From Bacteroidales bacterium (GTDB lineage: Bacteria; Bacteroidota; Bacteroidia; Bacteroidales; UBA932), in assembly GCA_017471965.1 (NCBI GenBank), contig JAFURF010000006.1, positions 62,001 to 126,000 of the forward strand: a stretch of DNA of 64,000 bases, read 5' to 3'. The notes below the pieces were generated by a model. The model was not told the origin of the DNA, made no database searches, and saw only the letters and a program-made list of their open reading frames with translations. A program made the translations under genes and the position numbers. Below, piece by piece: positions 9,129 to 63,074 of this stretch. Position 1 is the stretch's first letter. The number at the start of each line of letters is the position of its first letter.

Positions 9129-9779
9129 ATGAACAAGATCCTATTCATCGACATCCTCACGACGGGACTGAATCCGCAGAAATGCGGCATCTATGCCATA
9201 GGAGGAATCCTGTGTGAAGACACGCAGTCCGTTATCAGGGAAACAAAGAGATTCGAATTCAGGCTCCGCCCGTCCGACGGTGCCAGGATCATTGACAACT
9301 CTCTGTGGCTCGGAGGAATCACAAGAAGCCATCTGCTCTACTACCAGCGGGAAGACGAAGTGCTGAAGGCATTCGTAGATATCATGTCCGAAGCCGTGAA
9401 CATTTCCGACCCTGAGGACAAGATCTTCATCTGCGGATTCAACTGCACGACTCTGGACATGCCGTTCCTCAAGGAATGGTATGAAAGAAACGGAAACAAG
9501 AGGTTCCGTGACTGTTTCCACATGCAGACGATTGACCTGATGAGCATCGCCACATATGCCCTGATGTCCGAAAGACATACCATGAGGGAATTCAATCTGT
9601 CCACAGTCTCCAGGAAACTGGGAATCGTGGCAAAGACAAGCGAGCACTATGCCTGCATGGACAACGTCGAGACATGCATACAGATATACCGTAAACTCAA
9701 GGAGCGACTTGGCAGGGGAGAATGGGGGGAACATCTTGTCTGTGATGAATCAGTAACCAACTTCAATCAAAAGGCATGA
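9129..9779 (+). CDS. DnaQ-fold 3'-5' exonuclease-like protein, first catalytic motif degenerate
   Basis: The ribonuclease H/DEDDh fold is readable. Motif I region is FIDILTTGL (Asp8), motif II is CGFNCTTLDMPFL with its Asp, motif III is EHYACMDNVETC with the expected His and Asp. In motif I the catalytic Glu of the usual DxETTG is Leu10, so metal binding is probably impaired. Either it is a structural or binding subunit, or it relies on another acidic residue. The stop overlaps the relaxase start by 4 bp (ATGA), so expression is coupled to the relaxase. Confidence 0.8.
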   Translation: MNKILFIDILTTGLNPQKCGIYAIGGILCEDTQSVIRETKRFEFRLRPSDGARIIDNSLWLGGITRSHLLYYQREDEVLKAFVDIMSEAVNISDPEDKIFICGFNCTTLDMPFLKEWYERNGNKRFRDCFHMQTIDLMSIATYALMSERHTMREFNLSTVSRKLGIVAKTSEHYACMDNVETCIQIYRKLKERLGRGEWGEHLVCDESVTNFNQKA

Positions 9780-11179
9780 TCATCAAGATACAGCCGCCAT
9801 CGGACATGGTGGACGCTACCGTAATGTACAATGAAACGAAGGCCAACGGCCCGGAAGGCGTAAGGGCAGATGACCAGAACGTCTTCAGGGAAGAGGACGG
9901 ACATGTAGTAGCGACCAGAAACGTGCCGGATGACAGCACACTTGAGGATGAGTTCGAACGGCTGCGCATCCTGAACGCAAAAAAGGCACGTGGAAGGAAC
10001 CTTGAAAAGGCTGCCTTCCATATGTCCGTCAATCCCGGAGTCAACGACGCCCCGCTGTCAGAAAGAGAAATGGCCGCATTCATCGACGAACTGATGCAAG
10101 GCATGGGATACGGAAGCAACCCGTACAGGATATACAAGCATACAGACATTGAACGGACACATTATCATGTCGTCACCTGCCGCATCGGTCAGGACGGGAA
10201 GAAGATAAACGACTCCTTCGAAAACAGACGGATAAACAGGCTGGCCGAAAAATTCGCCAAGAAATACGGCTACACCGTAGGACTGGATGAAGAACCGCTC
10301 GAAGAAGACCTCGAAGAGGTAAATGATGCCGATACAACAGAAGATGTGTCCCATCAGAAAGAAAGACAAGAAAAAACAGAACAGGCTGAAAAGACCGGGC
10401 AGACTCAGGATAGTGACGATGCCCCAAAGAAGAAACAGTTCGTACCTCCGTTCAACAAGGAATCCGACGAACCGATAACCGAACAGTTCCGGAAGATTCA
10501 TGAAGAGGCCATGAAATGGAACTTCACAACTCCGGAACAATACAAGGCCCTTCTTAAATGGAGGTTCAATGTGGAAGCGGACGAATTCGAAGACGGAATC
10601 AACTTCATAGGACTTGACAGAAACGGCAAGGAAGCGACCAGTCCCGTATCTGAAAAAGACCTGGGCATCGATGCGGCGGAAGACATCATCCGCAAATGCA
10701 CTACCACAGACATGAAGAAACGCCGCAGACAGCGAGAGAGGTTAGAGGGATATGCCCTTGAAGCGATAAAGGGCAGCATGTCACTCAAGGAGTTCAGAAA
10801 GAAAATGAACGATAAGGGAATATATGTCGTAATCTCCTATACAGAAAACGGAAAGCCATTCGGTCTGACATGGCTGGACAGAGCGACGAAGTGTGCATTC
10901 AAAGGCAGTGAAACGTCGTGTGACCTCAGATGGCTCATAGAGGGTGCCGAAAAGAACGGGTGGATCCTGGAAAGAATTCACAGGTTCGACAGGACATCCG
11001 ACATAAAGTCAAGATACAAATCAAGATACCGCGTCGGCAGCGAAATAAAGAGACGCATCCAGCAGAAGAAGGACGAAGCCCTTGCAAAACAGATGATGAG
11101 AGACCAGGATGAAAGATCGAACACCCGGGCTGTCAACACCTCCGAACTCAATGATGATCCAAACAACATCAAAATATAG
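9776..11179 (+). CDS. Relaxase/mobilization nuclease (HUH type)
   Basis: 467 residues. The N-terminal 150 residues form the relaxase domain: AFHMSVNPG near 83, then the histidine cluster YKHTDIERTHYHVV near 120-133, which matches the HxH metal site of Bacteroidetes MOB relaxases. A Glu/Lys-rich linker (about 175-240) and a helical C-terminal half follow. It would nick oriT, bind the 5' end and pilot the strand. The coupling protein gene follows 8 bp downstream, the usual Bacteroides mobB-mobC order. Exact MOB class not assigned. Confidence 0.88.
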   Translation: MIIKIQPPSDMVDATVMYNETKANGPEGVRADDQNVFREEDGHVVATRNVPDDSTLEDEFERLRILNAKKARGRNLEKAAFHMSVNPGVNDAPLSEREMAAFIDELMQGMGYGSNPYRIYKHTDIERTHYHVVTCRIGQDGKKINDSFENRRINRLAEKFAKKYGYTVGLDEEPLEEDLEEVNDADTTEDVSHQKERQEKTEQAEKTGQTQDSDDAPKKKQFVPPFNKESDEPITEQFRKIHEEAMKWNFTTPEQYKALLKWRFNVEADEFEDGINFIGLDRNGKEATSPVSEKDLGIDAAEDIIRKCTTTDMKKRRRQRERLEGYALEAIKGSMSLKEFRKKMNDKGIYVVISYTENGKPFGLTWLDRATKCAFKGSETSCDLRWLIEGAEKNGWILERIHRFDRTSDIKSRYKSRYRVGSEIKRRIQQKKDEALAKQMMRDQDERSNTRAVNTSELNDDPNNIKI

Positions 11180-11187
11180 CAGAAGAC

Positions 11188-13314
11188 ATGGCAAGAGACA
11201 CACAGAAGACAGAATCACTATCGTGGGCGCTGATTGCGTTCTCGCTGGTGCTTACGTTCCTGTACGGATACTGGCTCACCGCACCTGTCCTTGCGTCACA
11301 CGGAATCCGATTCGGATTCCTGGAACAGATCATGCTGCTATATAAGGACTACTTCTCACACCCATGGAAAATCAAAGGACTCGCATTCATGCTCCTTGTC
11401 TGTTCGGCCATGTTCCGTTCAGGAAAGAAGACCACCACGACGGTAGGGAAAATCGTCCTTTGGTGCATCGCAGGAACAGTGATCTTCTTCATCAAGGTCG
11501 AAGATCCTCTCATACACGTGATAACCATGCTTGTCGGACTGTTCCTGAGCAACTACGGCTATTCTCTGCTTGTACGTAACATATGGGAAGAAGCAGAACC
11601 CGATGACGATGAGGGCTTCGAGCAGACGCAGCGTCTGATAATGACAAAGGACTCGATCAACATACCATATGTCTTCATCTATAAGAATAAACAGTACAAA
11701 GGCTGGATAAACTGCATCAATCCGTACAGGGCTTCAATGGTCCTCGGTTCCCCTGGATCCGGCAAGTCGTTTGCCTTCTACAATGCGTTCATAGAACAGA
11801 CACTCAGGAAGGGATTCACGATGTTCCTCTATGACTACAAGTTCCCAGACCTGACAGAAAGAGTCATCACGGAAGTCGCATATCAGATGCAGTACGAAGG
11901 TCTCTGGAAAGACATGAAGATAAAGCCGCATCTGTATATCATCAACTTCGACGACCCGATAAAATCCAACAGATGCAACCCAATACATCACTCGTACATC
12001 ACCGACCCTGCGGATACGTCGGAAATCGCAGACCTGGTGTTCAAGAACATCAACAAAGGTTCCGACGGCAAAGGATTCAACTTCTTCGATGAATCTGCAA
12101 AAGTATATCTTGATGCACTGGTCTGGTTCCTTGCCAATTACGATCCGGACGCACTGTATGATGATGACGGAAACGTGATCGGCTCATCGACCGACTATAA
12201 GAGAAAAGGATGCTACTGCACGTTCCCTCATGTCATCGAACTGATGGCATATAACTATCAGAAATGCTTCCAGATCCTGCAGTTCACCAAGGGTCTCGAA
12301 GCAAAGATATCACCGTTCGCCAGCGCACTGAAAGACGGAGCAATGGAACAGTTGCAGGGACAGATCGCCTCCGCGCAGATTCCGATGGGAAAATTCGTGT
12401 CACCGGCACTGTACTGGGTAATGACAGGAGACGACTTCACTCTTGACATAAACAATCCCGAAGACCCTAAGATCGTATGCATGGGTAACAACCCGGACAG
12501 ACAGACGATCTATGGAACGACCCTCGCACTGTACACGTCAAGGATGTTCAAACTCATCAACCATAAAAAGAAACTCAAGAGTGTGGTACTCCTTGACGAG
12601 TTGCCTACGGTCTTCATCAAAGGCCTCGACAACCTCATCGCCACAGCCCGTTCCAACAAGGTCGCCATCGTCCTCGGTGCGCAGGACAAGAGCCAGTTGA
12701 AGAGGGACTACGGAGACAAGGAGGCGGAAGTCATCATGTCCACTGTCGGAAACGTCTTCTCGGGCTCTGTTGAAGGAACCACTGCAGAAAGCATATCAAA
12801 GTCTTTCGGAAAGGAATTCAGAATGAGGGTCTCACAGTCATTGGGAGATGACTCGGACTCCCGTTCGATCAGTTATCAACTCGAGGACATCCTGCCTGCG
12901 AGCAAGATCATGGACATGAGCCAGGGTACCTTCTGCGGATGGGTAAAAGATAACTTCTCAGACAAGATCAAGAGAAAGAAATTCCACGGCGAGGTAACAG
13001 TAGACATAAAGAGGAACGAAAGACTGGACCAGAACCAGCAAGGCGTGCCGGTAATCACCAAGATCTTCGGAGACACAATGCCGGCACTGCAAGACGCGGA
13101 CAGGGAGAGGCTTAAGAAAATCTGGCCGAAACTGGCAGACAACGAAAAGGCCCTCCATGCGAAATACATCGACGAACTCGTACAGGTGGAAGTCCTGAAG
13201 AACTTCAAGAAGATAAAGGACGACATCAGGTTCATAGTCGAGAAGGAATACGAACGCACGAAGCCGCTGGCGGAAAAGAACAAACAGGAAATGCAGAACG
13301 AAGATGACGAATAA
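11188..13314 (+). CDS. Type IV coupling protein (VirD4/TraG, Bacteroides MobC type)
   Basis: 708 residues. Two N-terminal membrane segments (about 12-33 and 74-115) carry the YGYWLTAPVL signature of Bacteroides MobC coupling proteins. Walker A is GSPGSGKS near residue 187 and Walker B is VVLLDELP near 467, followed by a TARSNKVAIVLGAQD sensor-like strand. It is the inner-membrane ATPase that hands relaxase-DNA to the secretion channel. It follows the relaxase in the same operon, while the channel operon lies at the other end of the window. Confidence 0.93.
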   Translation: MARDTQKTESLSWALIAFSLVLTFLYGYWLTAPVLASHGIRFGFLEQIMLLYKDYFSHPWKIKGLAFMLLVCSAMFRSGKKTTTTVGKIVLWCIAGTVIFFIKVEDPLIHVITMLVGLFLSNYGYSLLVRNIWEEAEPDDDEGFEQTQRLIMTKDSINIPYVFIYKNKQYKGWINCINPYRASMVLGSPGSGKSFAFYNAFIEQTLRKGFTMFLYDYKFPDLTERVITEVAYQMQYEGLWKDMKIKPHLYIINFDDPIKSNRCNPIHHSYITDPADTSEIADLVFKNINKGSDGKGFNFFDESAKVYLDALVWFLANYDPDALYDDDGNVIGSSTDYKRKGCYCTFPHVIELMAYNYQKCFQILQFTKGLEAKISPFASALKDGAMEQLQGQIASAQIPMGKFVSPALYWVMTGDDFTLDINNPEDPKIVCMGNNPDRQTIYGTTLALYTSRMFKLINHKKKLKSVVLLDELPTVFIKGLDNLIATARSNKVAIVLGAQDKSQLKRDYGDKEAEVIMSTVGNVFSGSVEGTTAESISKSFGKEFRMRVSQSLGDDSDSRSISYQLEDILPASKIMDMSQGTFCGWVKDNFSDKIKRKKFHGEVTVDIKRNERLDQNQQGVPVITKIFGDTMPALQDADRERLKKIWPKLADNEKALHAKYIDELVQVEVLKNFKKIKDDIRFIVEKEYERTKPLAEKNKQEMQNEDDE

Positions 13315-25000: not shown

Positions 25001-27566
25001 TATACGGTCTTGACGCCTTTTCCCTGTTCAGGACATCCTCGCCATAACCTTCCTCCCACAGGACGAAACTAGGAGTATCCTGAGGCAAGGCTATCGCTAC
25101 AGGCTGAGAGGTTCCGAGGAACCACACACCATCCATCGCCTCCTGCATGTTACGTGGAAGACCGGTAGCGATCTTCTCTCCTTCCGCCTGAGCGGTCATC
25201 TTCTTCTGCCTCCTCTGAAGTTCGGCAGCGACGCGCTTGGCGTCTTCCGCGTCTTTCGCCCTTGATACTTCCAACTCTCTGTTTAGAGTATTCCTCTCAT
25301 CCATCATCACGACACCGAAACGGTTCTCGCCCTTACCATCCAGGCCCACAAACAATGCCGGTTCGCCAAACGAACTGACACATACGATATCTGAACTGCC
25401 TGTCTCCAGTATGCTGTCAGCAAAACGGCTGCTCGCCCTTGTCATCATGTGCACGGCATTCCTCATGCATCTCTCCTTCATGTCGTCATCGACATTCACA
25501 CCTGCCATATGTCTGTCATATACTCCCTGAAGTGAAATCATTCCATCCGATGCCTGCACCAGTTCCCTCAGTGTCTGCTTGTCACCCTTGCCGGCATTCT
25601 TCATCATAAGCGCACAATACACTCCATAGACAGAATTGAAAGGCACTCCGTCAACAAATACAGATGCATCATACCTGTTGGCGACGAACGGAATCGCTAT
25701 ATCAACTGCACCTGAAGGCATGTGAGACATGATGGTAGAAGCATCAAGGTCCCACTCCCTCCTCAATTCACCGGCAAACAGACTATCCTGATATGACGGT
25801 TCTCCCAGGATCGAAAACTTGACCTTTTCAGATTCCAACTGCAGGTCCATTATCTGCCCCTGCTCACTACTGTTGTCGATGACGTGAAGAAACGGTCTTC
25901 CACTTGCAACGGCCAGCGATCCACGTTCCAGAATCCTGGAATTCCATGAATCATCAGCAACAGAATAAGAAAGAAAACCATCAGGCATTATACCATCAGA
26001 CTTTGAAAAACGTACCTCGGAATCATCTGACATCTCATCAAGATTGAACTTTACAGATTCTTCCCTTCCAACCAGAACAGGATAGACATTACTGAAATTA
26101 CGCATCCTTACGACAGAAAGCCTGCTGTCCTTGTTCTTATTCTCATGGCCGGCAGTGTTGTTAAGACCTGCACGCGAATAGTTCCAGTCATACACGTTTC
26201 CTTCATGCTTCTCGACGTATTGCATAAGCATCTTGTCACAACCTACATTGGTTCCGCTGACGAAACGTACCTTCACGTTCGGATCGATATTCATAAGTAT
26301 CGAATCCATCCTTTCCGCAAAGGCTTCATAATCGATCGCAGCCTCCTGCTCGGACTTGAACTCGAACTCACGGACAGTACGGGTATCATAGATGGGATTT
26401 CCAGACGAATCATACATAGGGCGACCCTTGCTGTCCTTCCTGATGATATTCTTCTTCTTTGAAACCGCCTTCGTCCCCGGCACCCTGCCTCCAATGGTAT
26501 CGCTGCCGTCGACCACAATGGTGATCTCTCCTTTGCCTGTAACCGAAGAGAAACGGACGGCCTCCTCCTTGGATGGATTCTCCAGGGCCCTGATCACTCC
26601 GTTCTCCGAAGACGTGTACAGGAGACTCGGATTATTGATGTATCTTGCCAGAATATGTGCCGGAGACGGTGCAAGTACAGGATGATAGACGCTGCGTCCC
26701 ATACTCTTGTCGGAAATGACAAGACTGTCCGCTACAACGGTCTTCCCCTTCAATGTCCTGTCGCGGAGAATCTGCTCACGCATCCATTCAAACTGTGCCT
26801 TCAGTTCGTCAATGAGACGGTCCTCCTCAGAAGCCGTGAATCCCTTGACCAGACCTCTTCTCCTAAGGTCTTTGAACAACGACTTCCAGTCCATCTCACC
26901 ACGCAAGGCCTGTTCGTAATACATTGACGCCTCAGCGGCATTCTCTACCCTGACACGATGCTTACGCGTGAGGCCAAATGGACATTCGAACGTATGAAAG
27001 CGGATGTCTGATGCAGATGATCTTTTTGCATGCCCACTGGTGCCGGTGAAGCCGTCCGCATCATGCTGAAAGACAACAGGGCGATAAAGACCGACATGAA
27101 CATATCTGTCGCTGCCGTTCCTCTCCTGAAGTTCGATATCCGTAGCCTCGGCGCCTACCGCAGCATAATCGACTGTGACCTGGCCTTCCCTGACAGGCAC
27201 TTCGTCAAGAATCTGGCCCTTCATCTCTCTGATGTACCTGTCACGGCACTTCTCAAGAAATATTCCGTATGTATTATTGCCTTCCAGTTCCTTGCCGGTA
27301 CGGGAAACGAAATTCATTCCGACTTCATTCCTGTACTTTCCGACATAAACTATGTTGCCCGTGTATGAAACAAGTTCGTTGGCAACCTGAGGATTCTCCC
27401 GAAGATACTGCATCATCCGTTCTTCGTCCAGAACCCTGTCAAGCACCTTCTTCTCAAGAACAAACTCGTCAGTATTCCCGTCGATTCCAATGAAACGACT
27501 TATCTCAAGTTCCGGAAGGACCCTGCCGTCCAGAAGAACCGTATCACTGTTCAAATAATGTATCAT
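22059..27566 (-). CDS. Giant polyvalent protein with SLOG-like and NADAR domains
   Basis: 1,835 residues, the largest gene in the window. Near residues 370-560 a SLOG/DUF2493-like unit is suggested by ITIVVDGSD, then VRFVSGTNVGCDKMLMQYV. Residues about 1465-1605 form a NADAR (YbiA-like) domain: HLSNFAVRPF, FESVEQGFQYMKSFY, LLSTGDAVITHIPDD and WGQLFPEIL. Residues about 1745-1810 form a YpsA-type SLOG domain with RCGGQTGVDEAGAVMA and a HAPNDWR loop. The middle ~900 residues are not recognised. Such mosaics are known as polyvalent proteins of phages and conjugative elements, delivered with DNA to neutralise host nucleotide-based or ADP-ribosylation defences. Domain calls are by motif; function is inferred. 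Confidence 0.8.
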   Translation of the reverse strand: MIHYLNSDTVLLDGRVLPELEISRFIGIDGNTDEFVLEKKVLDRVLDEERMMQYLRENPQVANELVSYTGNIVYVGKYRNEVGMNFVSRTGKELEGNNTYGIFLEKCRDRYIREMKGQILDEVPVREGQVTVDYAAVGAEATDIELQERNGSDRYVHVGLYRPVVFQHDADGFTGTSGHAKRSSASDIRFHTFECPFGLTRKHRVRVENAAEASMYYEQALRGEMDWKSLFKDLRRRGLVKGFTASEEDRLIDELKAQFEWMREQILRDRTLKGKTVVADSLVISDKSMGRSVYHPVLAPSPAHILARYINNPSLLYTSSENGVIRALENPSKEEAVRFSSVTGKGEITIVVDGSDTIGGRVPGTKAVSKKKNIIRKDSKGRPMYDSSGNPIYDTRTVREFEFKSEQEAAIDYEAFAERMDSILMNIDPNVKVRFVSGTNVGCDKMLMQYVEKHEGNVYDWNYSRAGLNNTAGHENKNKDSRLSVVRMRNFSNVYPVLVGREESVKFNLDEMSDDSEVRFSKSDGIMPDGFLSYSVADDSWNSRILERGSLAVASGRPFLHVIDNSSEQGQIMDLQLESEKVKFSILGEPSYQDSLFAGELRREWDLDASTIMSHMPSGAVDIAIPFVANRYDASVFVDGVPFNSVYGVYCALMMKNAGKGDKQTLRELVQASDGMISLQGVYDRHMAGVNVDDDMKERCMRNAVHMMTRASSRFADSILETGSSDIVCVSSFGEPALFVGLDGKGENRFGVVMMDERNTLNRELEVSRAKDAEDAKRVAAELQRRQKKMTAQAEGEKIATGLPRNMQEAMDGVWFLGTSQPVAIALPQDTPSFVLWEEGYGEDVLNREKASRPYIEDVEGNRISNDYVYFFPSNLSDVVRRYAVSSDPSQRDLTGLMRVNPETGEEFICAYGIAVKRNRGFYEHDNNFGKPCSFLMDNDGASLANSIYSANAEARYTALRHGLALCYSAYSTRSGDLKDSLSRVFEPKVWDYERTKEIFDRNTGKITQEGGVIVPKEITRQVYNKATRKTEYHTEYVRKKSWVDSPHAAPKNLAMVKRFEAMLQNGSQYPLTCFSLPRIDYEGITSEQFMNDLNFALNMANATAVVTGKPLRFPLDAEGRIDLGPGVPDNLRDMAERRINSYIGASNNEELIEGKIPVITRIPVSKAFTNDRPLERDGSDVILRPNDLVVAFGRYNFHDILVGNRAPLHEMAFKDEEGNVFKMTDMRLSSKFTAGELNKYLSYERNDECRFTVRSSDSSKIPGFIQAMNSYVSRAKEIQVEYKLFSEEDCRRGVDGLCDLNGEGYVHLLASNDENYDLIDKHVLSARPNETMLEMDPDWINVRGRQGREDDEVYAGKIVANDGFKGWAVYRYTLPDGTQSWWRTVDDLELAKDIILSSVKRTYKTDTRIVASPKVIEMSLKSLAVKDCGNALFDMHVSQIETKVDDKVVNLPEVKESQQTAEQNIINIHFGKGDNPHLSNFAVRPFDFETNNGTIHFESVEQGFQYMKSFYSLCSTKDCKEYRKAILATTDGAELRRLGKNLPGLNVEDWDQVSSELMKDLIMASFANDKAREDLLSTGDAVITHIPDDSRWGQLFPEILMAVRDELSKGLEESVEQDIIYTVSAGGYQKRTIENAQADDVDFTLAFAIDFDTYGEKATARAAGDSLIAVDIPVKAKGGIDMSSKAVENVVREIVESLPEEFVNDLECGFNIAGNGIYTLAKSGISQNDIDEFLCKVGAGLVDSGVKMSSIRCGGQTGVDEAGAVMAKVLNIPATVHAPNDWRFRNMDGKDVIGDRDAFVGRFEKKDYDRLKDLILSTDKKVSRNRKNGNSPKM

Positions 27567-32273: not shown

Positions 32274-32855
32274 ATGGAAGTAACGATAAAACAAAAGAAG
32301 TACAAAATCAACCGGCTTATAATTCTTGAATTCATCAGACAGAAAAAAGGCCTTACCCTCAGAGCCCTTGCTGAAAATGCCGGCTACGCTTCACAACAGA
32401 TGTATGTATGGTACAGGAACGATGATATTTACATCGAGCAATTGTACAATATCGCATCGGCAAACAATATGAAGATCGAAATAAGCCTACAAAAAAGGAT
32501 ATCAAATTTTAATACATTCTATGGCGACGTTACAATAGATGACGTGATGTATCGCATCGAGGATAAAAAAATAAATCCACATCCGAATATTGCTAAGTTT
32601 ACGCCTGAGGTACTAGAAAGACTAAAAGCCGGAGGGAAATTAAAATTTCTGGCAGAATTCATGCTCAGAACCAGAGAAAACAGCACACAGTTCTGCAGGA
32701 AAACAAGACTGAATGCAACTTCATTTAAAATGTGGATGAAAGAAGACAATATAAAGATTTCCCGAATCTACAAAATAGCAGAGGCATATGATGCAAAAAT
32801 TATCTGGAAACTGATAAGAGACAACAATGAAGAGTTGACATACTCTCCCGACTAA
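32274..32855 (+). CDS. Double helix-turn-helix regulator (paralog-like to 16,034)
   Basis: 193 residues with two similar HTH units separated by a linker. Unit 1 (about 14-70) has LTLRALAENAGYASQQMYVWYR; unit 2 (about 125-185) has NSTQFCRKTRLNATSFKMWM. Each is followed by an INxxxIA(E/S)A-type helix and a strand (MKIEISL, AKIIWKL). The duplication mirrors the protein at 16,034, so both likely belong to one regulator type. It lies between the primase operon and the orphan CRISPR/tracrRNA unit and may repress one of them. Confidence 0.7.
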   Translation: MEVTIKQKKYKINRLIILEFIRQKKGLTLRALAENAGYASQQMYVWYRNDDIYIEQLYNIASANNMKIEISLQKRISNFNTFYGDVTIDDVMYRIEDKKINPHPNIAKFTPEVLERLKAGGKLKFLAEFMLRTRENSTQFCRKTRLNATSFKMWMKEDNIKISRIYKIAEAYDAKIIWKLIRDNNEELTYSPD

Positions 32856-32974
32856 AGCCAGGGAGAATATCCGCTTGCCTTCATAAACATATCGACCGAG
32901 AACGAATAACGTATGTTGACAGATCCAGTAGGCCTGAAAATCAAATTCCATAGATAAACACCACTTGATACAAC

Positions 32975-33056
32975 AAAAATGCCCCCACTGACGCGGGGGC
33001 TCAGGCCTCCTCGAGACCTACGGCATATAGCCTTATTGTATCAAGATGTATTTTGT
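32975..33056 (-). ncRNA. tracrRNA (type II-like), orphan
   Basis: Read on the - strand from about 33056. The anti-repeat ACAAAAUACAUCUUGAUACA (33056-33037) pairs with the first ~19 nt of the CRISPR repeat: 8 pairs, a 2-nt U/U internal mismatch, then 9 pairs, the bulged duplex seen in tracrRNAs. Next comes AAGGCUAUAUGCCGU, a nexus hairpin GGC/GCC (33032-33022), a GGUCUC/GAGGCC hairpin (33018-33004), and a GC terminator GCCCCC/GGGGGC (33000-32981) followed by T5. The total of ~82 nt is a normal size. Its promoter is perfect. No cas9 is in the window. Confidence 0.85.
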
Positions 33057-33061
33057 ACCAG

Positions 33062-33092
33062 CAAAGATAGATATATTCTATTTCTTTGTCAA
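33062..33092 (-). promoter_or_regulatory. Promoter of the tracrRNA
   Basis: On the - strand TTG (33092-33090), 20-bp spacer, TATCTTTG (33069-33062), a perfect Bacteroidetes promoter. The expected start, about 6 nt downstream, coincides with the first base of the anti-repeat. Confidence 0.85.
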
Positions 33093-33099
33093 GTAAGTT

Positions 33100-33334
33100 T
33101 TCAAATAATACTTTGTTTCTACATCAAAATACAACGGCTCTAAAAGATGTGTTCGTGCGGGCCAAGTTGTATTTCACTCTATAAATACATCAAGATACAA
33201 CAGTCTCAGGTGTGCCAAGTTTGCCACGCTCGTTGTGTGTCACTATAAAATTACATCAAGATACAACGTACGATGAAGTCAGGTGAAATCAAAATCGTTG
33301 TATATCACTCAAAAAAATTACATCAAGATACAAC
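33100..33334 (-). CRISPR. Orphan CRISPR mini-array, four repeats and three spacers
   Basis: Repeats on the - strand begin GTTGTATCTTGATGTA and end ACAAC: 33334-33297 (38 nt), 33267-33232 (36), 33201-33166 (36) and a terminal copy 33135-33100 that keeps only its first 17 nt. Spacers are 33296-33268 (29 nt), 33231-33202 (30) and 33165-33136 (30) and are unrelated to one another. Repeat interiors differ between copies, more than in an active array. A -7-like TATCTTTG at 33423-33416 could transcribe it leftwards; its -33 is weak. Degeneration of the distal repeat matches this direction. No cas genes are present. Confidence 0.8.
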
Positions 33335-33434
33335 CTGAATGCAATAACAAAATGAACCTCAATCCATTAAGTAACATGTCAGGAAAATAAAATACCTTGA
33401 TGTTTCCTTACAGAACAAAGATAGATATTTATTT

Positions 33435-33647
33435 TCATCTGCCATATTTTCTTAACAAATCCATAAACGACTCAATTATAAGGTCGTTCAACTTCATCCC
33501 CCGTTCAGCGGCAAGGATCTTCATTTTACGCTGAAGACCCAATGGGACAAGATATGAAGACTTACGCATTTCATTATCAGATTCTGACTGTAACTTTCTC
33601 CTGGACATCTCGGAAAAATCAAAACCATTCAAGTTTTCTGTTTCCAT
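33435..33647 (-). CDS. Ribbon-helix-helix partition partner (ParG/CopG-like)
   Basis: 70 residues. A flexible N-terminal tail is followed by SSYLVPLGLQRKMKILAAER and MKLNDLIIESFMDLLRKYG, the strand-helix-helix layout of ParG/CopG proteins. It lies 19 bp downstream of ParA on the same strand, as in type Ib partition cassettes, where it would bind the centromere and the promoter. The -7-like box for the CRISPR array overlaps its 3' flank. Confidence 0.8.
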   Translation of the reverse strand: METENLNGFDFSEMSRRKLQSESDNEMRKSSYLVPLGLQRKMKILAAERGMKLNDLIIESFMDLLRKYGR

Positions 33648-33666: not shown

Positions 33667-34410
33667 TTATCTATAAAAACTTTCACTTATCCTCTCAAAC
33701 AACTCCGCGGCTACGGACGAATAATCAATAGCGCCAGCACTATCCGGGCGGTATTCAAAAATGCTCTTACGTTCTGCCATGCACTCGCTCAACGCTACAT
33801 TTCTTCGAACTACAGAACTAAGTACCGCTTCCCTATGATCATCACGAATCCTGCTTTCCATCTGCGCAGTATGCTTCTCCCTAAAGTCATGCTGCACAAA
33901 AATCACATCAATCGGCCTTATTCCTGCAATTATTCCGAATGTCTGGTCCAACGCCATCGCAGAAGCATAATCCGCTCTGACAGGACAGATGATCCTATCT
34001 GATACCACGCAAGCAGCCTGAAAAATGACCGAAGGATATGATGATGTATCAAGTATAATCAAATCATAGTCTTTCGCTACAGAAGAAACAAGTCTCTGGA
34101 GTCCAATGGAAACCTTTTCAAATTCATATTGATCTAAAACACATGAACGCATTGATCCTGGTGAGAGAAACAATTTCTCGCGCAATGAAATTACCGGCAA
34201 TTGTTGGCCATAAATCAAGGTATTATAAATTCCTTCTTTAAATAACACAGCAGATGTGTCTATCAAAGAATGTGTTAACGTTGCCTTCGGGTCAAGGTCA
34301 ACCATCAGAACCCGGTTCCCTTTCAAAGAATAGAAGGAACCTAAAGAAATAGCAGTGGTAGTCTTCCCTACCCCACCCTTGATATTCATAACCGATAATA
34401 CCAGTGCCAT
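33667..34410 (-). CDS. parA: ParA-type partition ATPase
   Basis: 247 residues with the deviant Walker A KGGVGKTT at 11-18, VDLDPKAT near 38-45 (switch I region) and LIILDTSSYPS Walker B near 115. Short, without an N-terminal HTH, as in type Ib systems that pair with RHH proteins. It would segregate the element, which supports an episomal stage. Promoter at 34516-34545. Confidence 0.88.
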   Translation of the reverse strand: MALVLSVMNIKGGVGKTTTAISLGSFYSLKGNRVLMVDLDPKATLTHSLIDTSAVLFKEGIYNTLIYGQQLPVISLREKLFLSPGSMRSCVLDQYEFEKVSIGLQRLVSSVAKDYDLIILDTSSYPSVIFQAACVVSDRIICPVRADYASAMALDQTFGIIAGIRPIDVIFVQHDFREKHTAQMESRIRDDHREAVLSSVVRRNVALSECMAERKSIFEYRPDSAGAIDYSSVAAELFERISESFYR

Positions 34411-45183: not shown

Positions 45184-46161
45184 CTACTCCATTACTATAT
45201 CACGGCTTGACTCGCCCCAGGAATTGATCTCTATATTGAACGACACCTGGTTACGGTCATACTCTCCATCAGGCGAACCGGAACCGAATCCAAGGAGTCT
45301 GATATTATCAATCAGGTACTCGTTGTTCGGCGCAAGAGCCGGAAGGTCTACTGCATAATATCCTGTCTCACCCAGGATGGTGGACTCGATTACAAGCCTT
45401 GTCTGTGATGTTGCCTTGCCTATCACATCACCGCTGTAGCAAAGAAGGGACAGATCGAGGCTATGAGGCTCATCACTGTCAACAAGGATGTTCAGGTCCT
45501 TATGGAACATGCCCAGAAGCAACGGATCTATGTCCTCCCCGATACCGGCACGATAGTACCACGGTCCGTTTCCCGTAATGTCACCGAAATAACTGATTCC
45601 CCCACACACTTCAGTAAGATAGACCTTCGTAATGCGGACCTCATGTACATTCAGCGCCTCGTTCCAGAATACGGGAGTAATGTTGCTTATCGTGATCCTC
45701 GAACACAGTCTGGACAGAACGACGTCAACCTTCGTGTCCGCAACGAACGAACCCGCCGCCTTTCCTGTCATGACATACAGGTCCTGGCTGTCCTCCAGAG
45801 AAGACTCCAGAAGCAATAGTTCAGAAAGATCCTTCACATCAGCCAGCCTCTCGTCGCTACAGTTCGCGACGAACCTTATGTCATGCTGAAGGCCCTTGCG
45901 GAGGGTCAGCCATGCTTCCGATCCGTTGAACTTCTGATAATGCACGATTTCGCCGCTCTCCCAGTCGAATACAAGCGCTGTAAGCGACTCGATATGGTCG
46001 CGAGGATCGATGTCCTCCGACTTCGTAGGGGCGTCGGCAAGGCCGGCACCGAAGCATACGAGCACGTCGCCAGTCTCCCCCTCCTTCTGTCCTGCGGGTG
46101 TGCGGGAGCAGGAAGAAAGCACTGCAACGGCAGCAAGCAATATGAATAACTTCCTTTTCAT
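45184..46161 (-). CDS. Fimbrillin-family (Mfa1/FimA-like) lipoprotein
   Basis: 325 residues with lipobox signal (LAAVAVLSSCS). The mature start GDVLVCFGAGLADAPTKSE and the later VDVVLSRLCSRITISNI strand are typical of FimA/Mfa-type shaft or accessory subunits, whose N-terminal strand is removed on assembly. Longer than the four fimbrillins upstream, so perhaps an adaptor. Confidence 0.72.
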   Translation of the reverse strand: MKRKLFILLAAVAVLSSCSRTPAGQKEGETGDVLVCFGAGLADAPTKSEDIDPRDHIESLTALVFDWESGEIVHYQKFNGSEAWLTLRKGLQHDIRFVANCSDERLADVKDLSELLLLESSLEDSQDLYVMTGKAAGSFVADTKVDVVLSRLCSRITISNITPVFWNEALNVHEVRITKVYLTEVCGGISYFGDITGNGPWYYRAGIGEDIDPLLLGMFHKDLNILVDSDEPHSLDLSLLCYSGDVIGKATSQTRLVIESTILGETGYYAVDLPALAPNNEYLIDNIRLLGFGSGSPDGEYDRNQVSFNIEINSWGESSRDIVME

Positions 46162-46185
46162 TCTGTAACAATATTTTGATTTGGA

Positions 46186-46208
46186 ACCCCGGGAATCATC
46201 CCTGACGC
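46186..46208 (-). terminator. Possible attenuator hairpin inside the fimbrial operon
   Basis: CCCCGGGA and TCCC/CCCGGG arms lie in the 90-bp gap between two fimbrillin genes; no T-run follows. It could tune the ratio of upstream to downstream subunits. Confidence 0.35.
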
Positions 46209-46251
46209 CCGGGATTAGATATTCATGTGCGCATCGTATGATGCCGACATG

Positions 46252-47154: not shown

Positions 47155-47183
47155 GGTATATGGATTATTTTGAATGGTTTGAC

Positions 47184-55813: not shown

Positions 55814-56044
55814 CTATTCGATGAAGTCGTCAGGATTCTCGAACCCGAACAGTTCGAGCGCCTTGCGCGTGTCCACCAGTATTATGCCCCCCTGCCTTTT
55901 GCAGGCATCCTTGATGACCCCTTTCGACATCTTGAGCGCAGTGGACGACGACACGTTGAACAGTGTCGCCACTCCCTTCAACCCGTACAGCAAGCGAGGA
56001 AACTTGCCGTTTGTCACATTCACCTCAATCTTCCTTCTAGCCAT
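55814..56044 (-). CDS. DUF3853-like helix-turn-helix protein
   Basis: 76 residues. LKGVATLFNVSSSTALKMSK is a clear helix-turn-helix, followed by GGIILVDTRKALELFGF. DUF3853 proteins of Bacteroidetes have this excisionase-like form. Its start overlaps traM by 8 bp, and it lies between traM and traN, an odd site for a regulator; it may control the operon. Confidence 0.75.
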   Translation of the reverse strand: MARRKIEVNVTNGKFPRLLYGLKGVATLFNVSSSTALKMSKGVIKDACKRQGGIILVDTRKALELFGFENPDDFIE

Positions 56045-57281
56045 TGTTCTTTATGTTTTCAAAAATGTAAAAATCATATCCTGCGACTACGCTGATGGCC
56101 ACCGAACCGTCATCAAGCGTAGTCCTCGACAGTTCCCTGATGCCGTCTGACGCAATCCTGCCGACGTACGGATTGCCGGTGAACAGTGTCGCCGCCGTGG
56201 ACGCCAGCCCTGTCGCAGCCTGACCTGCCATCCTCCCAGCCGCCTTCCTTCCCTTCTTCTGTTCAATCACCGGACAGTATATTCCTTCAGTACCATCATT
56301 GTCATAGACGCTCATGTCAGTCCTGTGGATTCTTCCTCCGTAATTGACAGTAGTTATCGCTATCTCCAGACGGCTGCCCACCCGACATATTCCGGACACA
56401 TGAGTATTCGCCGGAATCACGGTTCCGTCGGACAGCCTCATCGGTTCCTTGAGCCTCATGATCACCCTCTGTCCCGCAACGACCTTCTCGGACTTCAGGA
56501 ACGTCGCCTTGACCGGACGGATCCTCACCTCGCCGTCCTCATACACAAGGCCCTGTTCTTCCTGCTCAAGCGACGAGATGATGCCGTCTCCGGACATGGC
56601 GTCATCCGGGATGAACGACGGCTCCGGTATGACTATATGCCTGGCATCGTCACCCTCGTCTGCAGACTCCTTCTTCTCCTCCTCAGCCGGAGCGGCAGCC
56701 TCCGGAGGAGTACTGTATTTCATGGCCAACTGATAGGCCCTCTCCATCCTTGCGAAATAGGCGCTGTCGCTGTTCTCGCTAGCACGGGATGCACTTCGGG
56801 CGGCATCCGAGGCCTTCCTTTCCGCCTCCTCACGGTCCCTCTCCACATGCTCGGCATCCACCTGCGCCTTCGTCTTCACCCCGTTGCGTATATAGTATAT
56901 CTCCAGTTCGGAATAGACTGAAGGATCAAGGAATTCCTCTCCGCCGCCGGAAGGGGCCTTCGCCTGGCCCTGACCTCCCTGCACGTCGACAAGAAGTCCG
57001 CCGCTCCCCTCCTGCTCCAACTGGTTCCAGAAGTCCGATGCGGACACTGAAGAATTCATACCCTGACGCCTGTAGGTCTCAACGCGGGACATCTCCTGGT
57101 CCTCCAGTGATGCGTCCGGCACTTCAAGCAGAACCTGGCCCTGTTCCTGTACCACCTCTTCCTTACCGCCACCGAAGGCCGCAAAGTATACAACACATCC
57201 CAGCAGGCCGAAAACCACGGCTGCCAGCAGCATCTGGATCGCCTTAGGCAATCCCGTTATCCAGTCAATGATCTTATCCAT
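56037..57281 (-). CDS. traM: Conjugative transfer protein TraM (VirB10-like)
   Basis: 414 residues from ATG 57281 (MDKIIDWITGLPK), one inner-membrane helix at about 18-36, a Glu/Ala/Ser-rich central region with VEHVERDREEAERK-type helix, and a conserved C-terminal domain (PVKATFLKSEKVVAGQRV, IPANTHVSGICRVGSRLEI). It spans the periplasm and links inner and outer membrane parts of the channel. Confidence 0.9.
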   Translation of the reverse strand: MDKIIDWITGLPKAIQMLLAAVVFGLLGCVVYFAAFGGGKEEVVQEQGQVLLEVPDASLEDQEMSRVETYRRQGMNSSVSASDFWNQLEQEGSGGLLVDVQGGQGQAKAPSGGGEEFLDPSVYSELEIYYIRNGVKTKAQVDAEHVERDREEAERKASDAARSASRASENSDSAYFARMERAYQLAMKYSTPPEAAAPAEEEKKESADEGDDARHIVIPEPSFIPDDAMSGDGIISSLEQEEQGLVYEDGEVRIRPVKATFLKSEKVVAGQRVIMRLKEPMRLSDGTVIPANTHVSGICRVGSRLEIAITTVNYGGRIHRTDMSVYDNDGTEGIYCPVIEQKKGRKAAGRMAGQAATGLASTAATLFTGNPYVGRIASDGIRELSRTTLDDGSVAISVVAGYDFYIFENIKNNG

Positions 57282-57298
57282 GATCCACCTCCGTTTTA

Positions 57299-57481
57299 TC
57301 AAAAGAAATACATAACCGACATCACCAGTTCGACAAGCGCCCAGACACATCCCGCTATCAGTAAGTAGAATCCTGCGGGAAACTTCTTCAGCCTGTCCTT
57401 CAGCGGCTCCTTCGCCGTGCCGTCACCGCGCCCCTGTTCCAGACGCTCCCTGCGGCTCATTACACCTTTCTCAGTACTCAT
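57299..57481 (-). CDS. traL: TraL-like small membrane protein
   Basis: 60 residues, basic N-terminal half and one membrane helix (FYLLIAGCVWALVELVMSVM). Its position between traK and traM matches the small TraL gene of CTnDOT-type operons. Assigned mainly by synteny. Confidence 0.7.
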   Translation of the reverse strand: MSTEKGVMSRRERLEQGRGDGTAKEPLKDRLKKFPAGFYLLIAGCVWALVELVMSVMYFF

Positions 57482-60025: not shown

Positions 60026-62695
60026 TCATCTTTTTTTCTGTGATTCCCTTATCCTTGCCGCCATAGTCTTCACGGCTTCTATGAACGACCCCGTCTCCCT
60101 GGCCAGATCGAACAGAGGCTTCTTCCTGACCTTGTCGGACTCATACGTCAAAGCCTCCTCCAACGACACCTCGATACCGAACACGTTGCCGTAACTCTCA
60201 CCTATTCCAAAGAACGCTTCCTTGTATATGTGAGCCGGCGAGAGATCCCTGCCTACGGACAGCACCAGACCGATATCCTTCGGACTAAGACCGAGTATCT
60301 CCGCGCTCTTCTCGAAATTGTTTGCGTTCTTGCGCTGATCCAGCAGGATCTTCACGGAAGAGTTCTGGATGATCGCATCCTTGACTATCTCCGAAGACAC
60401 AAGGTCCGAAAGCGACTGCGTCACAACGACAGCCGACGTCATGAACTTACGGGCGGTACGCCACATCCATACGATGAAGTTCGCCATCGCCGGCTTCGCT
60501 ATCGCGCTCCAGGCCTCCTCGATGACCATCACCTTCTGACAAGGAACGGAACGCATCTTCTCCTCGAAAGAATGCAGTATGCAGAGAGTCCAAAGAGGGA
60601 AGAGGTCGTCGTTGTCCTTGATGGTATCCACCTCGAACACTGTGAGCCGGCTCGCAAAGAGATCGGCCTCCGTCTCGGCATTGAGAAGGAACCCGTACTC
60701 CCCGCCCAACTTGTATTTCCCAAGGGCCACGCCGAACTTGTCCATGTCGAACATGTCCATGCGCAGCCTCACGTTGTCGATATAGTAGTTGTCGTCGTTC
60801 ACCAGCGGGCTGACGACAAGCGTCACGTACCTGAAGAAACTGTCGAACAGAGGGTCCCTGCCCGCCCTGCCGTCAGGAAAGACCTCCGGAAGAGGATTCA
60901 TCCAGCCCCTGTGGGCCTTGGACTCGTCGAACGGCTTGCCGTTCTCCTTGGCCCTCTTCCTTTTGGAATTCACGTACGCCTCAAGAAGCCTGTCCCGGAG
61001 CGTTTCGTCATATCCTTCGTCCCAGATGCGGAAGAACTCGCCCAACAGAGAAGTGAGCACCGCCGTCGCATCCTTGGTCCACCCTTCCGCCGGCTCGTAT
61101 ATGGTCCTTATCAGAGAAAGCACGAACTCCATTCCGGAACCCGTCCTCTCGCCGTCCTCATCCACCTCGTTCCAGTGCTTCCTTCCCTTGAACGGATTGA
61201 AACTGAACGGATGCTCCGGATCGTAGGTGTTGTATACTCCGTCCCTGCCTCCCGTCTCCTCGCTGATCACGCGGCAGAGTCCCTGATAGGAGTCTCCCAC
61301 GTCGATTATGAAGATGTGCTGGCCGGCGTTGTACCAGTTGCGCACAAGAGTGTTCATCGTGAACGACTTTCCTGTTCCCGAAGGACCGACTACGATGGAG
61401 TTCATGTTGTCCACATACCCGAGGGAACGGGCAACCGCCTGGACGTCTATCGTCACCGGAATCATCCTCCTCCTGTCCGACACCTTCACCGCTCCGCCCC
61501 TCATGCCGAAGTCGTAGCCGTCCCACAGTCCATGGCAGAGGAACGCCGTCATCTCGCTCGTCATGTAGAAGTCATAGCCCAGTTCGCCTGCGGCGCCCGG
61601 AATCGCGGCATAATGCAGCGTCGGACATATCCTGGTCTCCTCACAGACGGTCATGTCCAGTTCAGAAAAGGCGGTCACCACCGCATTCCTCATGTCCCTG
61701 ACCTCCTCCGGCCTTCCCCATGCCATCACGCTCGTGAAGCACTTGATGGTCGTCGCGCTGTCCCTCGCGCTCTCAAGAAGATATCCGCTCAGGTCCTCCG
61801 CATTCACCCTGCATTCCGAAGAATACAGGCTGAAGGAGTTCATCAGTTTCATTCTCTGGTTCAGTTCGGACTCCACCGACTTGCGCGGAAGCGTCACGAC
61901 GTAACGGTTCACCACATGAGGGATCTTCAACTGATATCCTATAGGGGATCCGCCCGACAAGTAGACCTTAGAATTCGCGGACGACATGGATCCCACCGGG
62001 CATACGGAATTCACCATCCCCGGATAGGAGTCGCTGTCCTGCACGTACCAGCACTTGGCCACCATGTCCCCGACGATCACGCAGTCAGGCTCGAACTCCA
62101 GCGGATACTCCAGCGACTTCGTGTCCGAAAAGAGCCTCAGATAGTCGGGGATGAGACCGAGGTCCTCCCCGTCCGGACCCATCCTCAGGAAGTCTCCGTC
62201 CGTAAGCGGAACCACATGGAGCAGGCTGTTGTTACGGAGCACCGCCTCGAACTGCGACGCCACCGCTGCGGCATTGCGGATCTTGTCGGCAGGCTTCGGC
62301 CTTGCGGCCAGGGAAGAGAACGCACCGCTGCTTCCCGACTTCGCCTCGATCACGTTCTTGCTGGAGAACGTCAGATAGACATAGCAGTAGCCGTTCAGAT
62401 ATGTCCTGCCCTCGAAATGCCTCTCATAGGCGTCGCCGAGGAATTCCCCGACACTCCCCGCATGATAGACGTCATTCTTGAAGATGTCCTGCTTGTGCAC
62501 GATGCACCACGTAGGCAGAAGCCTGTACGCCTGCATGAACGATGCGATTATGGAATCATAGCCAGGCTCGTTGACGGTATACGCCACAGGAAGGTAGACC
62601 CTCCATCCGAAGGTGAGGTCCCCCCTCTTCGACACGACGCATCCGTCGACGATCTGCATGACCGGTATGTATTCCCTGAGTGTCCTGTCGTTCAT
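60026..62695 (-). CDS. traG: Conjugation ATPase TraG (VirB4-like)
   Basis: 889 residues from ATG 62695 (MNDRTLREYIPVM); upstream in-frame starts overlap traF. Walker A VVGPSGTGKSFTMNTLV near 435, HIFIIDVGDSYQGLC just after it, Walker B VMVIEEAWS near 720, then VVTQSLSDL. It powers assembly of the channel at the inner membrane. A 906-codon open frame on the opposite strand is a shadow of this GC-rich gene. Confidence 0.93.
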   Translation of the reverse strand: MNDRTLREYIPVMQIVDGCVVSKRGDLTFGWRVYLPVAYTVNEPGYDSIIASFMQAYRLLPTWCIVHKQDIFKNDVYHAGSVGEFLGDAYERHFEGRTYLNGYCYVYLTFSSKNVIEAKSGSSGAFSSLAARPKPADKIRNAAAVASQFEAVLRNNSLLHVVPLTDGDFLRMGPDGEDLGLIPDYLRLFSDTKSLEYPLEFEPDCVIVGDMVAKCWYVQDSDSYPGMVNSVCPVGSMSSANSKVYLSGGSPIGYQLKIPHVVNRYVVTLPRKSVESELNQRMKLMNSFSLYSSECRVNAEDLSGYLLESARDSATTIKCFTSVMAWGRPEEVRDMRNAVVTAFSELDMTVCEETRICPTLHYAAIPGAAGELGYDFYMTSEMTAFLCHGLWDGYDFGMRGGAVKVSDRRRMIPVTIDVQAVARSLGYVDNMNSIVVGPSGTGKSFTMNTLVRNWYNAGQHIFIIDVGDSYQGLCRVISEETGGRDGVYNTYDPEHPFSFNPFKGRKHWNEVDEDGERTGSGMEFVLSLIRTIYEPAEGWTKDATAVLTSLLGEFFRIWDEGYDETLRDRLLEAYVNSKRKRAKENGKPFDESKAHRGWMNPLPEVFPDGRAGRDPLFDSFFRYVTLVVSPLVNDDNYYIDNVRLRMDMFDMDKFGVALGKYKLGGEYGFLLNAETEADLFASRLTVFEVDTIKDNDDLFPLWTLCILHSFEEKMRSVPCQKVMVIEEAWSAIAKPAMANFIVWMWRTARKFMTSAVVVTQSLSDLVSSEIVKDAIIQNSSVKILLDQRKNANNFEKSAEILGLSPKDIGLVLSVGRDLSPAHIYKEAFFGIGESYGNVFGIEVSLEEALTYESDKVRKKPLFDLARETGSFIEAVKTMAARIRESQKKR

Positions 62696-62699
62696 ATGA

Positions 62700-63074
62700 T
62701 TAACTGTTTTCGTTTTCCTTTCCGTCCCTCGCACGCTGCGAAGCGGCGAACCAGGACGGTTCATCTTCATGTTCCAGCAGGATACGGCAGAGCGTCTCGC
62801 GCCTCTTCACGCATCCCCTGGACCTTCCCTCAAGCGGCAGTTTCTCCAGTTCCCGGCAAGGAGTCCTGCCCTGCATGGAGATACATACCACGAAGGAGCA
62901 TACAGCCCCAACTATGGCCACGCTCACCCCGATTCCGGTACCCATCATGACTCCCACCACGATGCCCGCAAGCACGAACAGACCCGCCAGCACGAGGAAG
63001 ACGGTTATCCATTTGCCCTTCAGGCCGAATATGTCCACCGGCCTGTCCAAGGCCTTGCAGAAATACAGCGTCAT
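62700..63074 (-). CDS. traF: Transfer protein TraF (DUF4133, VirB3-like)
   Basis: 124 residues from ATG 63074 (MTLYFCKALDRPVDIFGLKG). Two membrane helices (about 22-40, 45-65) followed by a basic cytoplasmic tail. DUF4133/TraF lies before traG in CTnDOT-type operons, as here. Confidence 0.85.
   Translation of the reverse strand: MTLYFCKALDRPVDIFGLKGKWITVFLVLAGLFVLAGIVVGVMMGTGIGVSVAIVGAVCSFVVCISMQGRTPCRELEKLPLEGRSRGCVKRRETLCRILLEHEDEPSWFAASQRARDGKENENS

Follow-up and report, generated by a model that had tools for sequence, protein, structure and literature searches.

The window analysed here is a 64,000-nucleotide stretch (C29:62001-126000) of a 129,989-base (about 130 kb) contig from a Bacteroidales genome. 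A short CRISPR array, or mini-array, lies on its minus strand beside partition genes. The array has four repeats of 38, 36, 36, and 36 nucleotides and three spacers (W1, W2, and W3) of 29, 30, and 30 nucleotides, and is followed on the same strand by a gene for a tracrRNA-type RNA. Features of the mini-array and the main genes of the window are listed in Table 1.

Table 1. Mini-array features and selected genes of the window. Positions are those of the window.
Feature	Position	Strand	Remark
MobA/VirD2-type relaxase	9776..11179	+	
VirD4/MobC-type coupling protein	11188..13314	+	Above cut-off in Pfam, below cut-off in another model set
tracrRNA-type gene	32975..33056	-	82 nt; anti-repeat, nexus, hairpin, GC terminator with T-run
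tracrRNA second hairpin	33020-33002	-	
tracrRNA nexus	33032-33022	-	GGC-UAUAU-GCC
tracrRNA anti-repeat	33035..33053	-	
Predicted tracrRNA-gene promoter	33062..33092	-	Sequence pattern TTG-N20-TATCTTTG
Degenerate last repeat	33100..33135	-	Near-identical degenerate repeat also closes the cas9-side array
Spacer W3	33136..33165	-	30 nt; no target found
CRISPR repeat 3	33166..33201	-	36 nt
Spacer W2	33202..33231	-	30 nt; no target found
CRISPR repeat 2	33232..33267	-	36 nt
Spacer W1	33268..33296	-	29 nt
CRISPR repeat 1	33297..33334	-	38 nt; T-rich interior
Second copy of promoter core	33416..33428	-	13 nt (ATATCTATCTTTG); upstream of repeat 1
Ribbon-helix-helix-like ORF	33435-33647		70 aa; after the ParA gene; Antitox_RHH below Pfam cut-off
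ParA-type ATPase	33667..34410	-	Upstream of the mini-array
Conjugation protein TraM	56037..57350	-	Above cut-off in Pfam, below cut-off in another model
Conjugation ATPase TraG	60026..62770	-	

The RNA at 33056-32975 folds with a ∆G of −33.0 kcal/mol (z = −4.0), and 0 of 200 shuffles were equally stable. Repeat 3 and the anti-repeat form 8 and 9 base pairs flanking a 2x2 loop, or 17 out of 19. The duplex of repeat 2 with the anti-repeat has a ∆G of −16.6 kcal/mol; among 2000 shuffled anti-repeats, one paired equally well. The repeat pattern, the z-score of the fold, and the anti-repeat shuffles rule out chance repeats as the source of the mini-array. An Rfam scan of the window gave nothing above the cut-offs, which rules out a known Rfam RNA as the identity of this RNA. 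The predicted promoter of the tracrRNA gene is of a type that we take to be that of Bacteroidota. The second copy of its core, upstream of repeat 1, is a possible promoter of the array itself, with a clear −33 TTG at 20 nucleotides absent.

Profile searches of the contig identified a Rep3 initiator, the relaxase, the coupling protein, TraG, TraM, and ParA, and the contig is likely a plasmid-like, conjugative element. The best matches listed for the Rep3 protein among plasmid proteins are replication initiators at 28.5-29% identity. An overlap between the two contig ends was not found, so circularity is unproven and some room is left for a misjoin. The element also carries a large uncharacterised protein, an 1835-aa ORF with a NADAR domain (window 22059-27566, minus strand), and fimbrillin/FimA-like genes (window 45184-47220, minus strand).

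An earlier account made from the letters of the window alone (the sequence-only reading) had described most of these features, and much of it holds. Its four repeats, three spacers, and same-strand tracrRNA-type gene are seen again on reading the sequence, as are the 17 out of 19 anti-repeat pairs. Folding returned the order of nexus, second hairpin, and GC terminator that it had given, and the TTG-N20-TATCTTTG sequence that it named is present at 33092-33062. The conjugative carrier that it proposed agrees with the relaxase, coupling protein, TraG, and TraM genes. It had seen no cas9 or cas1 in the window, and genome-wide searches likewise place no Cas9-type HNH domain or Cas1 there. The cas1 profile (PF01867) has zero matches in the whole of the own genome, which is 64% complete.

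A search of this genome with the cassette (array plus tracrRNA gene) gave a second copy at C29:4909-5279, which is 77% identical over about 370 nucleotides. This second cassette is downstream of a gene encoding a 1228-aa Cas9 (C29:5538-9221). The Cas9 gene and the mini-array are on the same contig and are 85.8 kb apart. The array that the sequence-only reading had called an orphan thus has a Cas9, a paralogous array, and a paralogous tracrRNA on its own contig. That reading had named, as something that would refute it, a cas9 locus just outside the unit that would make it an ordinary system. Half of this applies: the cas9 gene is there, but with its nuclease residues replaced the system is not ordinary.

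Adjoining cas9 are an OrfB/TnpB gene and the Rep3 gene. The tnpB gene (IS605 OrfB; L005:9241-10398, minus strand) is directly upstream of cas9, between cas9 and the Rep3 gene. Its GIDLG, LED, and D-V-N-A motifs appear intact.

In the cas9-side array, five repeats are well formed, the last is degenerate, and a remnant precedes them all; five spacers (C1 to C5) separate the repeats named r1 to r6. The two cassettes are most alike at their tracrRNA ends. From the last repeat to the terminator they share 89-91% identity (91% mean column identity), the degenerate repeat and the promoter included; the cas9-side promoter reads TTG-N20-TATTTTTG. Unlike the tracrRNA regions, the spacers of the two cassettes are different. 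The cas9-side tracrRNA has a longer hairpin and still folds as a hairpin. Repeat 1 of the mini-array is 97% identical to repeat 5 of the cas9-side array across 38 nucleotides. With the tracrRNA inside it, a cassette could be duplicated elsewhere as a self-contained functional unit and be expressed separately, in this case next to the partition genes.

Similar hairpins of the form CTCTCCC...GGGAGAG are found 3' of the mini-array tracrRNA (window ~32840-32875) and at L005 ~5445-5475, inside the degenerate start of the cas9-side array. A 24-nucleotide exact PLSDB match to a Hymenobacter transposase gene (E 0.1) overlaps this hairpin region. It is a guess that the hairpin is an IS605-type end that helped move the cassette.

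The ten repeats of both arrays were typed, and no two are identical. The eight well-formed repeats have a near-constant first 16 and last 13 nucleotides, position −8 excepted, and a middle part that varies in both sequence and length. Conservation of the 5' part can be attributed to pairing with the anti-repeat. The 3' part, which is unpaired with the anti-repeat, is about as conserved, and pairing does not account for it. The variable repeats here, set against the near-uniform repeats of relatives, suggest that the arrays were not recently copied from one leader repeat. The lack of recent acquisition noted in the sequence-only reading is consistent with ten differing repeats and a degenerate last one.

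The plasmid Cas9 (P0001) matches TIGR01865 with 362 bits (cut-off 100). Profiles PF13395 and PF18470 are over their cut-offs and PF18541 is below. It is the only match to the Cas9-type HNH domain (HNH_4) in the 64%-complete genome. Protein searches returned the best 120 of 3564 matches per search, and P0001 to P0130 were aligned, two of the 130 being N-terminally cut. Three catalytic positions are replaced in P0001. The RuvC-I Asp (D in 121 of the 130) is His25, the HNH His (H in 123) is Tyr689, and the RuvC-III Asp (D in 123) is Asn858. The RuvC-II Glu (Glu606), the RuvC-III His (His855), and the HNH Asn (Asn712) are retained. At the three altered positions, D, H, and D are present in the Cas9 that matches best in the PDB. 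The 8uzb chain has Ala at the first two and is read as a laboratory dead version. From these residues the plasmid Cas9 is predicted to be nuclease-dead, although the Asp-to-His change could in principle leave some RuvC activity.

Conservation outside the catalytic positions was scored with the alignment columns that are at least 98% invariant in 121 intact Cas9s, with region borders set by us. P0001 keeps 15 of 16 such columns in the bridge helix, 101 of 116 in REC, 57 of 66 in the C-terminal region, 13 of 16 in RuvC-I, and 31 of 38 in the RuvC-II stretch. The HNH and RuvC-III regions keep 24 of 33 and 31 of 60, respectively. Kept binding regions with relaxed RuvC-III and HNH are the pattern expected if binding is selected and cutting is not.

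P0001 is accompanied, among the matches listed, by at least seven further database proteins that each carry at least two of the three changes. P0004 is 98% identical to P0001, has all three, and is perhaps from the same plasmid population. P0005 and P0007 have the same three replacements, and P0008 is changed at the three positions with Phe where P0001 has Tyr. The HNH His is kept in P0006 and the RuvC-III Asp in P0020, with the other changes present in each. P0124, which is N-terminally cut, has Tyr and Asn. A quick maximum-likelihood tree was built from 64 of the 130 proteins. In it P0001, the six other full-length members, and the N-terminally cut one fall into a single group of eight with an SH-aLRT of 100. 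Mapped on the tree, the nuclease-loss label requires one change, against 7.7 in shuffles. P0020, P0002, and P0056 are on long branches, and the placement of P0020 is for this reason the least sure. Losses common to the clade point to a maintained lineage and not to a single broken gene.

Among near-full Cas9s taken from 19 other genomes or records, every readable catalytic position is intact. The Cas9 profile matches 44 of 400 genomes of the genus, the own genome included. Judged by bit score, no further dead Cas9 was seen in these 400 or in 333 genomes of the order, where the own copy scores 2254 and all others score 1690 or less. IMG/VR, searched with the Cas9 and with the clade alignment, gave no relative. 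The Cas9 matches in PLSDB are below 60% identity (51 records; best rows 23-27%), and INPHARED has a single match to P0001 at 24.9% over 37%.

Type II-C systems that are presumably chromosomal occur in the same genus and order (L050 and L052-L057), and they have the tracrRNA architecture and nexus sequence of the plasmid system. The Cas9s of the five closest genomes with such a system are 43-47% identical to the plasmid Cas9. Unlike the plasmid Cas9, the relatives have intact catalytic residues in 7 out of 7 cases. Five of the six searched have cas1 (L050 was outside this search). The exception is G003, which is 92% complete, carries the L054 Cas9 locus, and has no cas1 match genome-wide. L054 (G003:C43:33000-50000) itself has a Cas9 with intact catalytic residues, an array, and a tracrRNA. 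Repeats are near-uniform in the six relatives' arrays viewed, and no array was detected in L053.

The relatives have the repeat GTTGTGGTTTGATGTAGA and the anti-repeat TCTACATCTTACCACAA, or close variants, and the plasmid has the repeat GTTGTATCTTGATGTA and the anti-repeat TACATCTTGATACAA. Duplexes were computed for two of the eight well-formed plasmid repeats and six other repeats with two plasmid and seven other anti-repeats. Plasmid repeats with plasmid anti-repeats have ∆G values of −16.6 to −20.2 kcal/mol. Plasmid repeats with relatives' anti-repeats have values of −6.4 to −10.6 kcal/mol, and relatives' repeats with plasmid anti-repeats have values of −11.0 to −11.3 kcal/mol. By this comparison of sequences and predicted duplexes, the plasmid repeat and anti-repeat have co-changed. 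The tracrRNAs of relatives share architecture and nexus with the plasmid RNA but differ in repeat/anti-repeat pairing.

Eight spacers (W1-W3 and C1-C5) were searched for targets. The remnant start of the cas9-side array was left out, save for one 19-nucleotide piece. An accepted full-length target was found for one of the eight, C2, and for none of the three in the mini-array.

Spacer C2 matches 30 out of 30 nucleotides in G285, a genome of the same genus. We estimate the chance of a 30-nucleotide match across 400 genomes at about 1e-9 per spacer. The matched gene is of the AbiH family (PF14253, 63 bits, cut-off 30.9), and PADLOC gave no match for its protein. The own genome has a different AbiH gene in which the C2 site is absent. 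On one side the target gene is flanked by a DUF234 ATPase (PADLOC candidate PDC-S27), an asparaginase, a dicarboxylate transporter, and a glycosidase. The opposite flank carries an SDH-type protease, a type IIG restriction-methyltransferase match, PDC-M64B, and a methyltransferase. Two of these neighbours belong to PADLOC candidate defence families, and the neighbourhood as a whole is read as a chromosomal defence island. Catalytically dead Cas9 (dCas9) blocks elongation when the crRNA is complementary to the coding strand. The C2 crRNA is complementary to the coding strand of the AbiH-family gene, and this orientation would be expected to block transcription. The 3' flank of the protospacer is TCAATAAA. 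A PAM could not be derived from the relatives' arrays, two of which matched one phage record each. These phage matches were rejected as protospacers as the matching pieces resemble repeats.

The other spacers gave partial matches. W1 has a 21-nucleotide exact match in 17 of the 400 genus genomes (23 of 24 nucleotides in two of them) and weaker matches in nine more. All nine loci inspected are rpsS, with mismatches at both spacer ends and the crRNA in the coding sense, an orientation opposite to that of C2 on AbiH. We estimate that chance alone would give a match of this kind in about 1% of such searches, and rpsS was not accepted as the W1 target. C4 has matches in four genomes at E values of about 1e-5 to 7e-5. 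They were rejected because they span the spacer/repeat junction, and in the loci inspected the spacer itself has 8 to 12 mismatches. Matches of 16 to 21 nucleotides for W2 and W3 were also rejected, being in the 5' part of the spacer and not reaching the 3' end. The 13-nucleotide 3' seed of C3 occurs in the own plasmid near the traM end (window 56030-56042; p = 0.007 before correction for eight spacers).

Within the own contig, the 20-nucleotide 3' ends of the eight spacers have at least five mismatches and the 19-nucleotide piece has at least four. No protospacer was found in the own genome at E up to 10 for the mini-array and up to 0.02 for the cas9-side array. PLSDB and INPHARED gave short matches alone for both arrays, with E of 0.1 or worse. 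IMG/VR, searched with the 18-nucleotide 3' ends of W1, W2, W3, C3, and C5, gave two single matches, neither of which extends. Both spacer searches of the genus genomes scored at most two candidates per genome in the first pass, so that misses are possible.

The plasmid system, as judged by its Cas9 and RNA sequences, derives from type II-C. It shares with canonical II-C systems the Cas9 signature and a tracrRNA whose anti-repeat pairs with the array repeat. It differs in that no cas1 was found in the 64%-complete genome, and in its lack of intact RuvC and HNH residues and of near-identical repeats. Absence of cas1 alone is common for plasmid systems: PMC9071438 reports an adaptation module for 36% of those on plasmids, compared with 88% of the chromosomal ones. 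The same module is often absent in type IV (PMC11656645, available portion).

Several mobile-element systems are comparable, as far as the accessible text of the cited papers describes them. The phage variant II-C2 is likewise a Cas9-family effector on a mobile element with an inactivated RuvC, but its HNH is apparently active (PMC12669027). In the plasmid Cas9 the HNH His is Tyr and two RuvC residues are replaced, and loss of both activities is predicted from these residues. The plasmid system further differs in being on a Rep3 contig with conjugation genes, in having two guide cassettes, and in having no close phage match. The phage Cas9 of PMC11656645 resembles it in having a tracrRNA encoded by the phage. 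An inactivated Cas12b3 with a mini-array on an Actinomyces conjugative plasmid is also a nuclease-inactivated class 2 effector, of type V where the present one is a Cas9 (PMC12669027). Plasmid systems of type V-M (Cas12m) and type IV-A have unrelated effectors and described targets that are mostly plasmids. The plasmid Cas9 would act as they do, by binding and transcription block without cutting. Viral mini-arrays and Racr are very short arrays on mobile elements, as here, but have repeats identical to the host system (PMC11656645). The present mini-array has its own tracrRNA and effector on the element. Its repeat differs from those of the genus relatives, and the own genome, 64% complete, gave no second Cas9-type HNH.

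TldR, an RNA-guided transcription factor of phages, originates from TnpB. It is likewise encoded by a mobile element and regulates a host gene, but is a TnpB-type protein and not a Cas9 with an array and tracrRNA (PMC13418256, accessible text). The binding-only comparators (IV-A, V-M, Cas12b3, and TldR) are covered in the accessible parts of PMC11656645, PMC12669027, PMC10442227, PMC11013384, and PMC13418256. The literature covered was open-access, with subscription papers mostly outside its scope. No natural Cas9 with both nuclease domains inactivated was found in the text available.

The mini-array is best explained as a duplicated guide cassette that likely serves the contig's own Cas9. Given its replaced nuclease residues, this Cas9 is predicted to silence its targets by binding and not to cut them. 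We put the probability of this explanation at roughly 0.6. RNase III would process crRNA:tracrRNA pairs from both cassettes, the RNAs of both would load one and the same dead Cas9, and the complex would block RNA polymerase. At least one purpose may be to help the plasmid establish and persist by silencing defence genes of the host, those for abortive infection or others. The system is probably a case of natural dead-Cas9 silencing on a conjugative plasmid, used in counter-defence; the silencing itself we infer from sequence. The broadest form of this proposal is tentative and falls somewhat short of even odds. It holds that a conjugative plasmid employs a fully nuclease-dead Cas9 and two cassettes as a CRISPRi weapon against abortive-infection and other defence genes of the bacteria that it enters, and that this counter-defence belongs to the whole clade of dead Cas9s.

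The strongest competing explanation, itself rather unlikely, is that the dead Cas9 acts mainly on rival plasmids or phages, where its binding would block replication or transcription as for IV-A and V-M. Plasmid CRISPR systems mostly target plasmids, according to the available part of PMC11656645. Seven of the eight guides are without an accepted target, and rival elements are poorly sampled. The only full-length target, however, is a defence-type gene beside restriction genes, with the asparaginase and transporter genes opposite. The PLSDB and INPHARED matches are short, with E values no better than 0.1, and nothing extended in IMG/VR for the five spacers searched there.

Decay would explain some of the same observations. 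A II-C system captured by the plasmid would have lost its adaptation genes and then its nuclease, leaving the arrays as drifting relics. All ten repeats differ, the last repeat is degenerate in both arrays, and cas1 was not found in the own 64%-complete genome. We nevertheless consider this improbable, since the 1228-aa frame is open and seven further proteins of one clade, among the matches listed, share most of the losses. Conservation is high in the binding regions and relaxed in RuvC-III and HNH, and pairing, promoter, and tracrRNA fold are retained in both cassettes. It is equally improbable that the protein still cuts or nicks through His25 and the kept Glu606, His855, and Asn712, as part of an immune system with unusual active sites. 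Some ligands are indeed kept, and the clade member P0006 retains the HNH His. Against this, P0001 has lost both conserved RuvC Asp residues along with the HNH His, and RuvC-III and HNH are its least conserved regions.

The dead Cas9 and extra tracrRNA might also serve as an RNA/protein anti-CRISPR that titrates host type II crRNAs. A phage II-C2 Cas9 with inactive RuvC has been proposed as an anti-CRISPR in the accessible parts of PMC12669027 and PMC11656645. This explanation is very improbable here, as predicted pairing of the plasmid anti-repeats with the six relatives' repeats is poor, the plasmid has its own guides (one with a full-length target), and a second Cas9-type HNH was not found in the own incomplete genome. 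The proposal of the sequence-only reading, a guide cassette that borrows or redirects a chromosomal host Cas9, can be nearly dismissed: intact II-C Cas9s with the same nexus occur in some genus genomes, but the element has its own Cas9 on the same contig (the only HNH_4 match in the 64%-complete genome), pairing with the RNAs of relatives is mismatched (poor for the two plasmid repeats tested with the tracrRNAs of seven presumed chromosomal relatives), and matches to the Cas9 profile are confined to 44 of the 400 genomes of the genus, including the own genome. Service to a plasmid-borne, predicted nuclease-dead Cas9 takes its place.

The dCas9 used for silencing in the laboratory carries engineered mutations at the RuvC Asp and the HNH His. 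Here these two residues and a third catalytic residue are replaced in nature, in a plasmid Cas9 lineage that keeps its binding regions, tracrRNA, and guides. An array that has a tracrRNA but no neighbouring effector is not necessarily an orphan, as the effector may be encoded on the same element at a distance of tens of kilobases. If the plasmid Cas9 does silence genes, CRISPRi would be an evolved function of type II systems as well as a tool, and plasmids would, given the AbiH match, have in it a means to switch off bacterial immunity.
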